Shown: one piece after another, positions 35,057 through 62,360 of the stretch
Layout: every line of letters begins with the position of its first letter
How positions within the stretch are numbered: position 1 is the stretch's first letter
Source of the DNA: Bacteroidota bacterium
GTDB taxonomy: Bacteria; Bacteroidota; Bacteroidia; UKL13-3
Length of the DNA: 64,000 bases
NCBI GenBank assembly: GCA_027487835.1
Contig: JAIYCU010000033.1
Location: 1-64,000 of the forward strand
Direction: 5' to 3'
The notes under the pieces: model-generated
What the model was told of the DNA's origin: nothing
Database searches by the model: none
The model's input: the letters and a program-made list of their open reading frames with translations, nothing else
Made by a program: the position numbers and the translations under genes

Positions 35057-35182
35057 AGCGTTAAAGTTTTGGCGCTCAAAGATGCGTATAGTTAAGACAA
35101 GAAAAATATAAAATAGTTTAATTGGTAAAAATTTGAGGTGAAATTTGGTTTTAGTTTTTCTTTACTATTGCTTTGCGACTGT

Positions 35183-35265
35183 CTTTAGGGGTGCCTTTGG
35201 ATTTTTCAACGGCTGAGAACAAACCCTCTGAACCTGATCAGGATAATGCCTGCGAAAGGGAAAAG
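35183..35265 (+). promoter_or_regulatory. TPP (thiamin pyrophosphate) riboswitch
   Basis: The aptamer is recognised from the THI-box segments in order: GGGGTGCC (35188-35195), GGCTGAGA (35211-35218), then ACCCTCTGAACCTGATC and GGATAATGCCTGCGAAAGGG up to 35260. A closing CTTT/AAAG stem ends one base before the ATG at 35267. It binds TPP and represses thiamin uptake or synthesis genes when TPP is plentiful. With the P1 stem touching the start codon, control is probably at translation initiation. It governs the downstream TonB-dependent receptor. Confidence 0.95.
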
Positions 35266-35266
35266 T

Positions 35267-37474
35267 ATGAAAAAAATAGTATATATATCAGCAACATTGC
35301 TGCTGCCGGCGTTTGCTTTTGGGCAGCAAGATTCTTCCTCTAAACAAGTTGGTTTACAGGAATTAATTATCAGAGAAATTAATCCATCTTTGAAAAGGCC
35401 TCTTACTTTTAGTAGTCTTGAAAAGAAAGACCTTAAGCAACTTTATTTTGGCGCCGATGTACCTTCCGTATTGCAGCAACTTCCGTCTATAAATGCATAC
35501 AGCGATAATGGCACTGGCATTGGTTACAGTTTTTTCAGAATGCGGGGTATTGACCAAACACGAATTAATACAACTGTTAATGGTGTTCCCTTAAATGATC
35601 CAGAGAATCAGGGCGTTTTTTTTGCCAATTTTGCTGATTTGCTAAGTGGGGTTGAAGAGATACAAGTTCAAAGAGGACTAGGCACTTCTACAAATGGCTC
35701 TTCTGCATTTGGCGGTTCCGTGCAAATATCTTTGTCAGCCTTAGAACAAAAACGTTCTGCCGAAATTCAAATGGGGATTGGGTCCTTTGGTTCAAACCGA
35801 GTTACGGCTAGTATTCAAAGTGGGTTAGTAAATAAAAAATGGCTTTCTCAGTTAAGAATAGGAAGGATTCAAACCAATGGATTTAGAAACAATGCATCAG
35901 CAGAGGTAATCTCTTACCAAGCATCTGTTTTGCGATTATTGAAAAATGGTACGATTAGGTTTAATGCATTTGGCGGCGCTACACAAAATCAACTTTCTTA
36001 TTTGGGAATAGATAAACAAACCTTTAATGTAAATCCTAAAACTAATCCCTTTGTGAATGGTGAATCGGATGCCTTTCGTCAGCTTATAAATCAATTACAA
36101 TACACCAGAAGACTCGGTTTGAACCAAACATTAAATGCAAGTTTGTATTTTGTGCGTGGGGTTGCGCCTAAATTTCAGTTTTTGTTTCCTGCTAGTTGGG
36201 GCTATACGTTTGATTGGTTTAATATGTCCCCCTTGATTTCTGGAAATGATACCAATTTTATTGCAGGAGATATGATGACTTCATATCGATTGGATCAAAA
36301 ATTTTATGGGGCATTTGTAACATATACCTATCTTCATAAGCGGTTTGAAATCAATAGCGGTTTGCATGCAAATTATTTTATTGCCGACCATTTTATGGAA
36401 GTGTTAAATGGAACTAATATCCCAAATAATTACTCATTGCCGCATGAAGTATACAGAAACACAGGGATTAAAAGAGATTTAAGTGCCTTCTTAAAAGGTA
36501 ATTTTAATGCTACGGATAAGTTGAGTTTGTTTGCAGATGTTCAAATTAGAATGACAAGTTTTACTTATTCAGAAAAGGAAATGGCAATACGTCCAAGTTT
36601 TGGAAAGGTTGAAGATATGCAATGGGTGTTTTTCAATCCTAGAGTTGGAATTAATTATCAACTTAAGCAAGGGCAAACCCTCTATGGATTTACTGGAATT
36701 GGGTACAGAGAGCCTACACGCTTTGATTATTTGCAAGATGATTTTGCCCCAGGTGATATAAAGCAAAGCGCCATAAAGCCAGAGCAATTATGGAATACAG
36801 AGCTTGGCTATAGATTGAATGGTGGGAACTGCAAATTAACAGTTAACCTTTTTATGATGGAGTTTCAAAATCAAATTGTGGGTACTGGCGCCCTTAATAA
36901 TTTTGGTTATCCAGTTACAGGAAATATTGGGAGAAGCTGGAGAAGAGGGATAGAAACAGCTTTGGTGCTTCCCATTGATAAAATGTTCTCTGTTTTTGCA
37001 AACACAAGTTTTAGTCTAAATGGGGCAAAAGAATTCTCACAAACTTTTTCTTCAGAAGATTTTTCTACATCACTTCAAAAGACATTTAAAAACACACCAC
37101 TAGCTTTAAGTCCAAATCAGTTGCACCTTTTAGGTATTCAGTTTAATTCTTTTGATGAAACAGTGCATGCTACAATTAATGGTAGGTATGTAGGTAAACA
37201 GTTTTTAGACAATACAGGTAACGATTTGCTTAGCATTCCAGCTTTTTACACAATTGACGCGAGGTTTGCATATCAATTTAGTATTAAAAGTTTAAAGGAC
37301 TCAGAATGGCAAGTAAAGCTTCAGGCCAACAACTTGCTCAATGCAAATTATGCACCCTTTGGAAGTTTAGGAGGGTTTAATACAATAAATGCAGAAGGGC
37401 AAAGAGGTCAGTTTGCTTTATTTATGCCTGCAGCTGGCAGAAATTTCTTTTTAACTTTATCGGCTAAATTTTAA
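35267..37474 (+). CDS. TonB-dependent outer-membrane receptor, TPP-riboswitch controlled (probable thiamin uptake)
   Basis: The 735-residue receptor has a signal peptide (MKKIVYISATLLLPAFAFG), a plug domain (VPSVLQQLPSINAYSDNGTG, FRMRGIDQTRINTTVNGVPL, IQVQRGLGTSTNGSSAFGG) and a 22-strand-type barrel ending in aromatic residues (GRNFFLTLSAKF). The open frame starts at 35246, inside the TPP aptamer; the ATG at 35267 starts the signal peptide and is clearly correct. The riboswitch points to import of thiamin or a precursor across the outer membrane. No inner-membrane thiamin transporter (PnuT) or thiamin pyrophosphokinase gene is next to it in this window. It contains two exact iterated decamer copies. 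Confidence 0.94.
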   Translation: MKKIVYISATLLLPAFAFGQQDSSSKQVGLQELIIREINPSLKRPLTFSSLEKKDLKQLYFGADVPSVLQQLPSINAYSDNGTGIGYSFFRMRGIDQTRINTTVNGVPLNDPENQGVFFANFADLLSGVEEIQVQRGLGTSTNGSSAFGGSVQISLSALEQKRSAEIQMGIGSFGSNRVTASIQSGLVNKKWLSQLRIGRIQTNGFRNNASAEVISYQASVLRLLKNGTIRFNAFGGATQNQLSYLGIDKQTFNVNPKTNPFVNGESDAFRQLINQLQYTRRLGLNQTLNASLYFVRGVAPKFQFLFPASWGYTFDWFNMSPLISGNDTNFIAGDMMTSYRLDQKFYGAFVTYTYLHKRFEINSGLHANYFIADHFMEVLNGTNIPNNYSLPHEVYRNTGIKRDLSAFLKGNFNATDKLSLFADVQIRMTSFTYSEKEMAIRPSFGKVEDMQWVFFNPRVGINYQLKQGQTLYGFTGIGYREPTRFDYLQDDFAPGDIKQSAIKPEQLWNTELGYRLNGGNCKLTVNLFMMEFQNQIVGTGALNNFGYPVTGNIGRSWRRGIETALVLPIDKMFSVFANTSFSLNGAKEFSQTFSSEDFSTSLQKTFKNTPLALSPNQLHLLGIQFNSFDETVHATINGRYVGKQFLDNTGNDLLSIPAFYTIDARFAYQFSIKSLKDSEWQVKLQANNLLNANYAPFGSLGGFNTINAEGQRGQFALFMPAAGRNFFLTLSAKF
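35789..35798 (+). repeat. Iterated decamer copy GGTTCAAACC (GSN frame)
   Basis: Exact copy in the thiamin receptor gene, encoding Gly-Ser-Asn of FGSNRVTA. A one-mismatch copy follows at 35866. Confidence 0.85.
36116..36125 (+). repeat. Iterated decamer copy GGTTTGAACC (GLN frame)
   Basis: Second exact copy in the thiamin receptor gene, encoding Gly-Leu-Asn of LGLNQTLN. Confidence 0.85.
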
Positions 37475-60907: not shown

Positions 60908-60937
60908 TTTGTTTTTTCCTGATAAGATATACTTTTG
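60908..60937 (+). promoter_or_regulatory. metK promoter (TTTG-N18-TACTTTTG)
   Basis: TTTG at 60908-60911 and TACTTTTG at 60930-60937 are separated by 18 bases, the best fit to the Bacteroidota -33/-7 consensus in the window. Transcription would begin near 60941, giving a leader of about 165 nt before metK. Confidence 0.65.
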
Positions 60938-60941
60938 CATT

Positions 60942-61068
60942 GCATTAAGAATTCCACCTATGTGGAATGCCAACCGGGACGAACACTACGGTGGTGAAGC
61001 AATGCGGACTTTCTTGTCAATTTATGTTCAACTAGAATACAGGAGGGTTTTCGTGCTTCATTTAATGC
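60942..61068 (+). promoter_or_regulatory. Structured metK leader, candidate SAM-responsive switch
   Basis: Two hairpins are constant: ATTCCAC/GTGGAAT (60951-60957 with 60962-60968) and CC-A-ACCG/CGGTGG (60970-60976 with 60989-60994, one bulged A). Two outer closures compete. In form A, GCATT (60942-60946) pairs with AATGC (61001-61005). In form B, GCATTAA (60942-60948) pairs with TTAATGC (61062-61068) while TGAAGCA (60995-61001) pairs with TGCTTCA (61054-61060), making a four-way junction. Forms A and B exclude each other. The arm AACCG...CGGTG recalls P4 of the SAM-I/SAM-IV clan, but the rest does not fit the S-box consensus, so the class is not assigned. Confidence 0.6.
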
Positions 61069-61106
61069 CAAACTAGTAAACCAATTTTAAATTATAATAT
61101 AATAAT

Positions 61107-62360
61107 ATGTCTTATTTATTCACCTCAGAGTCTGTTAGTGAAGGACACCCAGACAAGGTTGCCGATCAAATTTCGGATGCGTTAATTGATAACTTTTTGG
61201 CTTTCGATCCAGATTCAAAAGTTGCTTGTGAAACGTTAGTTACAACAGGTCAGGTTGTATTAGCCGGAGAAGTAAAATCACGCGCTTATCTTGATGTACA
61301 AGAAATTGCACGTGGCGTAATTCGTAAGATTGGATACACAAAGAGCGAGTATATGTTTGAAGCAAATTCTTGTGGAATCTTATCGGCAATTCATGAGCAA
61401 AGCGCAGATATTAATCAAGGAGTAGACCGTAAAAAGAAGCAAGATCAGGGCGCTGGCGACCAAGGAATGATGTTTGGTTATGCTACCAATGAAACAGAAG
61501 ATTACATGCCTTTAGCCTTAGATTTGGCGCATAAGATTTTAATTGAACTAGCCGCATTAAGAAGAGAAAACAAAGCCATTAAGTACTTAAGACCTGATGC
61601 AAAATCACAAGTTACGCTAGAGTATGACGATAACAATAAGCCAGTAAGAATAGATTCAATTGTGGTTTCTACCCAACATGATGATTTTGATACTGAGCCT
61701 AAAATGTTGGCTAAAATTAAATCAGATATCGTAAAAGTTCTTATCCCTAGAGTAAAGGCTAAGTACAAGAAATTTGCGCACTTGTTTAATGATAAAATCA
61801 ATTATCATATTAACCCAACAGGTAAGTTTGTAATTGGTGGTCCACATGGTGATACTGGTCTAACTGGCCGTAAAATTATCGTGGATACCTATGGTGGTAA
61901 GGGTGCACATGGTGGAGGCGCTTTCTCTGGAAAAGATCCTTCAAAGGTTGACCGTTCAGCTGCTTATGCAACTAGACATATAGCTAAGAACTTGGTTGCT
62001 GCTGGCCTGTGTGAGGAAGTGTTAGTACAAGTTTCTTATGCAATTGGTGTAAAAGATCCAATGGGGATTTATGTAAATACCTACGGAACTGCCAAGGTTA
62101 AAATGACAGATGGGGAGATTGCTAAAATTGTAGAAAAATTATTTGACATGACGCCTTACGGAATCGAAACCCGTTTAAAATTGCGTAACCCTATCTATAG
62201 TGATACCGCTGCTTATGGTCACATGGGACGTAAAAACGAAATCAAAGAAGTTAGCTTCAAAGGTCCTGATGGTAAAATGAAGAAATTCAATGTTGAATTG
62301 TTTACCTGGGAAAAGCTGGATATGATAGACAAAGTTAAAAAGGCATTTAAGCTTAAATAA
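61107..62360 (+). CDS. metK: S-adenosylmethionine synthetase
   Basis: MetK makes S-adenosylmethionine from methionine and ATP. The 417-residue product starts [20 protein letters not shown], has [20 protein letters not shown] and [20 protein letters not shown], and the signature [20 protein letters not shown]. All are normal for the family. It is a single-gene unit: two-box promoter, structured leader of about 165 nt, gene, then an iterated 16-mer and an intrinsic terminator 29 bases after the stop. Control by a leader RNA is likely from structure and gene identity but is not shown. Confidence 0.97.

Follow-up and report, generated by a model that had tools for sequence, protein, structure and literature searches.

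The SAM synthetase gene metK of the window (the whole stretch of 64,000 nucleotides analysed here) is preceded by a leader whose first bases can pair with either of two downstream segments. This raises the questions of whether the leader is a known SAM riboswitch, whether its two folds compete, and how such a competition would reach metK. An initial annotation, made from the letters of the DNA, described two mutually exclusive folds and could not place the leader in SAM-I, II, III, IV, V or VI. Here, the leader is assigned by sequence to the described SAM-I/IV class, and it is most probably a SAM-I/IV riboswitch that represses metK by feedback, with SAM as the predicted ligand.

Promoter and leader of metK

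The leader lies between two features:
60908..60937, + strand, Bacteroidota-type promoter, with TTTG at 60908-60911 and TACTTTTG (TAnnTTTG) at 60930-60937
61107..62360, + strand, metK (SAM synthetase), an open reading frame of 417 amino acids with its ATG at 61107

The two-box promoter already described upstream of metK is a shared feature, with both TTTG and TACTTTTG present in 18 of 18 aligned leaders (the spacing is slightly different in L018). TTTG at 60908 and TACTTTTG at 60930 match what we take to be the Bacteroidota promoter consensus. The promoter ends directly 5' of helix P1, and the leader RNA would be expected to start near 60942, at or just before P1. The strings on which the two folds had been drawn were all recovered, namely GCATTAA (60942-60948), AATGC (61001-61005) and TTAATGC (61062-61068), together with TGAAGCA (60995-61001) and TGCTTCA (61054-61060). 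A short upstream frame beginning with GTG at 61053 (7 codons, behind AGGAGG at 61041-61046) was judged to be a chance occurrence, because AGGAGG is missing from all 16 further rows of alignment A4, which was cut at hand-picked 3' ends.

Assignment to the SAM-I/IV class

The leader contains the following elements:
60937..61034, + strand, SAM-I/IV aptamer (RF01725), 51.3 bits against a gathering score of 41.1, E 1.2e-7
60942-60946, + strand, P1 5' strand
60952..60967, + strand, P2 hairpin, 60952-60957 pairing with 60962-60967 in six uninterrupted pairs
60969..60995, + strand, P3 hairpin, whose loop carries the PK-2 5' strand GAAC (60981-60984)
61001..61005, + strand, P1 3' strand AATGC, pairing with 60942-60946
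61007..61018, + strand, 3' hairpin outside P1
61026..61029, + strand, PK-2 3' strand GTTC, pairing with GAAC at 60981-60984

The RF01725 match was obtained in a permissive Rfam scan of a 451-base piece. It covers the whole model, exceeds the gathering score and is the best match kept for clan CL00012 at this site; the same place, rescanned permissively as L120, again gave 51.3 bits. Default Rfam scans returned no SAM riboswitch at metK in the whole window and no match in the 451-base piece around the leader. The sole entry of the default scan in the window was a TPP riboswitch (RF00059, 69.3 bits) at 35177-35278 on the + strand. A default scan of 20 loci gave at least one match in 18 (19 sites), and the two that were missed were L120, the window's own, and L149, which scores 53.9 bits in the permissive scan, over the RF01725 cut-off. 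When 15 class-wide loci were scanned permissively, RF01725 was above its cut-off at 17 sites, with 43.9-60.9 bits. We infer that the window site was lost in the default scan to speed filters. An RF01725 profile search of the window's own genome found none (0 of 1), which is read as a first-look loss because the site scores over the cut-off. Model R2 gave 95 bits in the window, its sole match there up to E 10, the window itself being among the rows that built R2.

The initial annotation had named a strong Rfam match to a known class as the result that would overturn its claim of novelty, and the claim therefore falls; RF01725 is SAM-I/IV, a class absent from the list it had considered. A placement outside SAM-I/IV, in SAM-I, SAM-IV or an unclassified SAM class, would agree with the empty default scan at the window site, but it is extremely unlikely given the clan result above, the continuous P2 and the presence of PK-2, and given that the default scan itself finds 18 of the 20 loci (17 relatives, with metK-type or other genes) as SAM-I/IV.

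SAM-I/IV has been described as a variant of SAM-I and SAM-IV without a P2 internal loop, found in several phyla and in marine samples (PMC2864571), and another study gives it an undivided P2, no PK-1 and a P4 (PMC6890682). The window leader has in common with the class (RF01725, 'SAM-I-IV-variant') a score above the cut-off, an uninterrupted P2, P3, the 3' hairpin and PK-2. Its P2 is a stack without internal loop, closed by a loop of four bases, and PK-2 joins the P3 loop to the 3' tail (GAAC/GUUC); the RF01725 model has no PK-1 helix. The 3' hairpin at 61007-61018 is presumably what SAM-I/IV wording calls P4, and it occupies the same place as P5 of SAM-IV. A difference lies in the PK-2 3' strand, where the Rfam consensus has AAGGAGUU, which in our own reading resembles a Shine-Dalgarno sequence, whereas the window has AUGUUC, which stops 77 nt short of the start and has a separate anti-P1 strand downstream of it.

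The related classes differ in other ways. SAM-I uses anti-P1 switching logic likewise and carries P4 inside the junction. In the window, the hairpin is 3' of P1 and P2 is continuous. According to PMC6890682, the ligand-binding core is common to both and SAM-I has a kink-turn in P2; this kink-turn is not seen in the window. SAM-IV likewise has P3, PK-2 and, on the 3' side of P1, a hairpin termed P5 (PMC6890682). It has P2a/P2b and PK-1, whereas P2 of the window is one continuous helix, and clan competition keeps SAM-I/IV. The fold of the SAM-II long-loop element (RF01726) differs from that of the window element. RF01726 had no match in the window's own genome, was absent among five permissive-scan matches and matches 1 of 62 genomes of the window's family; by eye, SAM-II-like leaders also occur upstream of metK in several other Bacteroidota. 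Among the matches listed in a search of literature titles, which covered part of the literature, none concerned SAM-I/IV platforms in Bacteroidota.

Distribution in the genus, order and class

A metK relative was found in 31 of the 31 genomes searched, and the aptamer is present in 17 of the 18 genus loci that have a leader (L001-L018, among them that of the window). Model R1, which was built from 17 leaders, matched 17 of 19 genus genomes at 19 sites. The 17 strong copies all stand before metK, and second, weaker copies in G002 (L128) and G003 (L129) both stand before small proteins. In the genus, only G005 and G017 lacked a match, the metK of G017 being cut off at a contig end. At L008 (G005:C127) the promoter is kept, the aptamer is gone and the first leader/aptamer bases run into the metK start; a second, partial metK in this genome (L165, G005:C4:46400-48293) is likewise without the aptamer.

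Matches were found in 24 of 64 genomes and 4 of 14 genera of the order (here one family), and in the class 26 of 395 genomes matched R1 while 33 of 395 genomes, from 20 of 196 genera, matched R2; the genus, order and class counts are all lower bounds, as stricter filters lose weak matches. The 57 model matches amount to 55 sites, two places having been seen twice (in L153 and L164). Seventeen of the sites are referred to below as genus metK leaders, and the other 38 include L128 and L129, the second copies in same-genus genomes.

Covariation of the aptamer and its ligand

Class membership, covariation of the aptamer, PK-2 and the class-wide competition described in the next section are supported computationally. 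The search for covariation in related leaders that had been suggested earlier gave a strong result over 53 distinct copies. The alignment of the 17 genus leaders has 94.5% of its cells paired (98.8% for P1, and 100% for P2, which has two-sided changes at 4 of 6 pairs), with a covariation score of 0.217 against 0.102 for shuffled alignments (0/500) and at most 0.067 for slid ones. Two-sided changes at 5 pairs are not unusual in this set, being reached by 72/500 shuffles; counted by cells, the 28 two-sided changes against 9.9 shuffled are unusual (0/500). Over the 53 distinct aptamers, 15 of 22 pairs have two-sided changes, including 3 of 3 in the 3' hairpin, and the score is 0.417 against 0.169 shuffled (0/500) and at most 0.073 slid, with alignments A2 and A3 (A3 being the 53-row test) fitted to the covariance model and thus biased towards its structure.

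The 3' hairpin and PK-2 were additions to the elements listed in the initial annotation. PK-2 is absent from the covariance model and was therefore tested by swapping partners. In 23 representatives the own partners gave -3.65 kcal/mol against -2.32 kcal/mol (sd 0.31), with 3/20000 permutations as good; the tail segments taken for L128 and L129 were too short in this test. The four GAAC/GUUC pairs hold in 17/17 leaders, and two further outer pairs fail in 11/17 and 12/17. The pairing changes to AGAU/AUCU in copies such as L137. The swap test found no PK-2 duplex below -1 kcal/mol in 6 of 55 sites (L135, L136, L140, L147, L150 and L154).

A change of ligand (e.g., to SAH) with the fold kept might be suspected from the genes behind the aptamers, since the first gene is something other than a recognisable metK at 25 of the 38 sites outside the genus metK leaders. 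The core bases are invariant in 57 aligned rows, in metK-linked and other-linked copies alike, and the copy in the window precedes metK. A changed ligand was accordingly rejected for want of any core difference between the two kinds of copy, and is very unlikely.

A predicted second fold that competes for P1

The second fold is formed by six strands:
60942..60949, + strand, strand a (GCATTAAG), the P1 5' strand plus the next three bases, used in the class a/a' swap test
60995..61001, + strand, strand c (TGAAGCA), from the minimum-energy fold, its last base being the first of the P1 3' strand
61006..61015, + strand, strand b (GGACTTTCTT), pairing with b' at 61041-61050
61041..61050, + strand, strand b' (AGGAGGGTTT), from the alternative fold
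61054..61060, + strand, strand c' (TGCTTCA), from the minimum-energy fold
61061..61068, + strand, strand a' (TTTAATGC), the anti-P1 strand, from the duplex and swap tests and the minimum-energy fold

The four-way junction proposed earlier as the second fold is the predicted minimum-energy fold of 60940-61115, at -42.8 kcal/mol (z -2.56; 3/200 shuffles as good). With P1 held closed, the energy is -30.1 kcal/mol, a value that contains neither PK-2 nor SAM terms. The long arm of the junction has an additional helix, b/b' (61006-61015 with 61041-61050), which the initial annotation had not listed. In the 17 leaders, 97.5% of cells are paired in b/b' (seven pairs counted), largely via G-U changes, and 92.6% in c/c', which was counted in a shifted four-pair form.

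Taken alone, a/a' of the window is marginal (shuffle p 0.064), and the window's P1 strand pairs as well with 8 of 21 dissimilar foreign downstream stretches. It is the comparative evidence over the class that makes a/a' convincing. Over the 55 sites, the mean self-pairing energy is -9.0 against -6.5 after swapping. For 32 class representatives, in which L115 was replaced by the window and 6 of 32 are genus metK leaders, the mean is -9.12 against -6.05 (sd 0.36; 0/20000), and for 26 representatives of the 38 sites outside the genus metK leaders it is -9.74 against -6.04 (0/20000). In these duplex and swap tests, a' was defined as the partner giving the best duplex; in several genus leaders (L114, L116, L119, L122 and L123) this differs from the aligned a'. 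Against shuffled downstream sequence, p 0.05 was reached by 23 of 36 other sites and 6 of 17 genus metK leaders, near-identical sites being included among these 53. At most sites, some 10 to 35 nt separate PK-2 from a', and the sequences involved are quite different (e.g., AUCAUCAAGAA pairing with UUCUUGAUGAU in L149, whereas L157 has UCGUAUUCCGAA with UUCGGAAUACGA).

The mutual exclusion of P1 partners that had been proposed is supported for the class (0/20000), whereas the 17 genus metK leaders alone give it no support (-7.11 against -7.00; 4515/20000), a test with little power because the P1 strand hardly varies among them. The alternative helices a, b and c have 91.6% of cells paired in the genus, against 31-57% when slid, and column shuffles fail to set them apart (91.6 against 91.0% paired, 77/500). 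Their changes are mostly to G-U, with two-sided changes at 2 of 19 pairs (31/500 shuffles). RNAalifold on the genus alignment kept P1 and b/b' and did not keep a/a', and a/a' was read by hand in the own minimum-energy fold of 12 of the 17 genus leaders. Overall, support for the switch is good at the level of the class, and in the window the case is built from class homology, the window's own predicted fold and marginal single-sequence evidence.

From the aptamer to metK expression

In the proposed mechanism, metK RNA would start at or just before P1, so that the aptamer is transcribed first. With SAM bound, the aptamer (P1, P2, P3, the 3' hairpin and PK-2) would be stable and the P1 5' strand held. 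Without SAM, the P1 5' strand would be captured by a', the stretch joining P3 to P1 by c', and the upstream half of the 3' hairpin by b'. The result would be the four-way junction first drawn in the initial annotation, in which metK would be expressed. We infer the binding of SAM, the direction (SAM being off) and the lowering of metK expression by the state of the aptamer.

Outside the genus metK leaders, the output step may be read from a' itself, whose 3' part pairs with the start codon or with the bases adjoining it upstream (L149 and L146b are clear cases). In 24 representatives of these sites, swapping a' and start partners gave -5.95 for the own pairs against -3.49 (sd 0.40; 0/20000). 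Start codons were chosen by rule, with hand choices in L111, L114, L116, L118, L119, L122, L123, L124, L149, L156, L157, L158, L161 and L163, and the start-codon tests exclude L142b and L145. The pairing predicts that without SAM a/a' forms and the start is open, and that with SAM P1 is closed, a' is released and the start covered, implying what would be translational OFF control with SAM at these sites. Such covering fits what PMC6847099 reports for Bacteroidetes, namely that they have no Shine-Dalgarno sequences and that mRNA structure tunes their initiation.

As at the other class sites, the a' strand of the window, once released by SAM binding, might pair with the metK start or with the bases immediately 5' of it; both the result for the 24 representatives and the mode of initiation described in PMC6847099 speak for this. 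The same test in the genus metK leaders gave -2.54 against -2.87 in 11 representatives (16207/20000), a' being mislocated in L114, L116 and L123; with the aligned a', it gave -4.42 against -4.34 in 8 representatives (8241/20000) and 16776/20000 for all 17, the test having little power among such similar leaders. In the window, the stretch from a' to the start has no fold (0.0 kcal/mol), the best a'-start duplex reaches -1.4, and the stretch behind the aptamer has a z of +1.7 at 15 C. A start-codon hairpin is thus unsupported for the genus metK leaders by fold energies and by the swap tests, and start covering in the window is unlikely. Because the genus test fails and the window stretch is unfolded, the claim made for the window is limited to the aptamer and the competition for P1.

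An intrinsic terminator between the aptamer and the metK start was rejected as well, since inspection of 61035-61106 by eye showed no hairpin that carries a U-tract. The missing U-tract hairpin would suit Rho-dependent termination or RNA decay. In such a model, the roughly 75 nt from aptamer to start would be unpaired with SAM, and the SAM-free junction would hide about half of them. The downstream strands conserved in the genus are those of the alternative fold, which also favours this output; we regard it as somewhat unlikely.

Genes behind SAM-I/IV leaders

The first gene behind the aptamer is metK at 29 of the 55 sites (the 17 genus leaders and 12 of the 38 others), a MoxR-like AAA ATPase at 3 and another gene at 22, with too little sequence at 1; among the 12 other metK-first sites, the frame at L150 has 131 aa and two run off the end of the locus. 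L168, L169, L174 and L175 have a row consisting of a MoxR-like AAA ATPase, a protein of 149-162 aa, a VWA/DUF2201-like protein and a divergent MetK, and in L175 a short metK frame precedes the AAA ATPase row. In L168, the sole locus scanned for families, AAA_5 was above its cut-off and DUF2201_N and VWA_CoxE were below theirs, and the MetK-like protein was above the Pfam cut-offs for 2 of 3 SAM-synthetase domains, with 138.8 bits against 309.4 for TIGR01034.

Small proteins behind L128, L129, L134, L137-L139, L152 and L159 partly share the pattern HxxLxTxLDL...FDE, that of L159 being the most divergent. A SAM-I/IV leader also lies some genes upstream of such a protein at L170:3922-4398. Pfam gave nothing over cut-off for the first five small proteins tried, four of them of this type, and no hit for a second set (150, 132, 116, 147 and 101 aa); the 136-aa protein of L166 is DUF3293 in Pfam. 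NCBIfam had no hit for six proteins (the second set and the 136-aa protein of L166). No solved relative of the small proteins was found in the PDB (best E 0.11), and against PHROG one of eight had one weak hit (E 0.006).

Some loci carry more than one aptamer. L142 has tandem SAM-I/IV aptamers (1501-1593 and 1655-1745, - strand), 61 nt apart, before a 379-aa metK. L166 and L167 each have two within a single gene row, separated by about 1 kb, the order being a 116 aa protein, a 132 aa protein, the second aptamer, a metK of the 379 aa type and a small protein (DUF3293 in L166). In L142, L143 and L146, ten-codon frames ending in Tyr-Gly-stop (MKFFKKIDYG, MKHYFNFHYG and MIHYYNFHYG) were seen by eye directly behind the start-covering hairpin, and these could be leader peptides.

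Implications for SAM control in Bacteroidia

The findings can be brought together, tentatively, as a three-strand SAM-I/IV platform of Bacteroidia in which a' would choose between the P1 5' strand, with the start open, and the bases at the start codon, with the start hidden. Such a platform would suit a phylum that has no Shine-Dalgarno sites, and it would steer metK, small-protein families without a known identity and the MoxR-VWA-MetK-like operon. On this proposal, the genus metK leaders would lack the start-hiding strand and use another output, and the second copies before small proteins in two same-genus genomes would keep it. For annotation, the window demonstrates that a default Rfam scan can silently drop a member ten bits above its cut-off. 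For the biology of the group, gene families that are unstudied appear to be under SAM control behind SAM-I/IV leaders, and SAM-I/IV in Bacteroidia offers a testable model of translational riboswitch control without a Shine-Dalgarno site.
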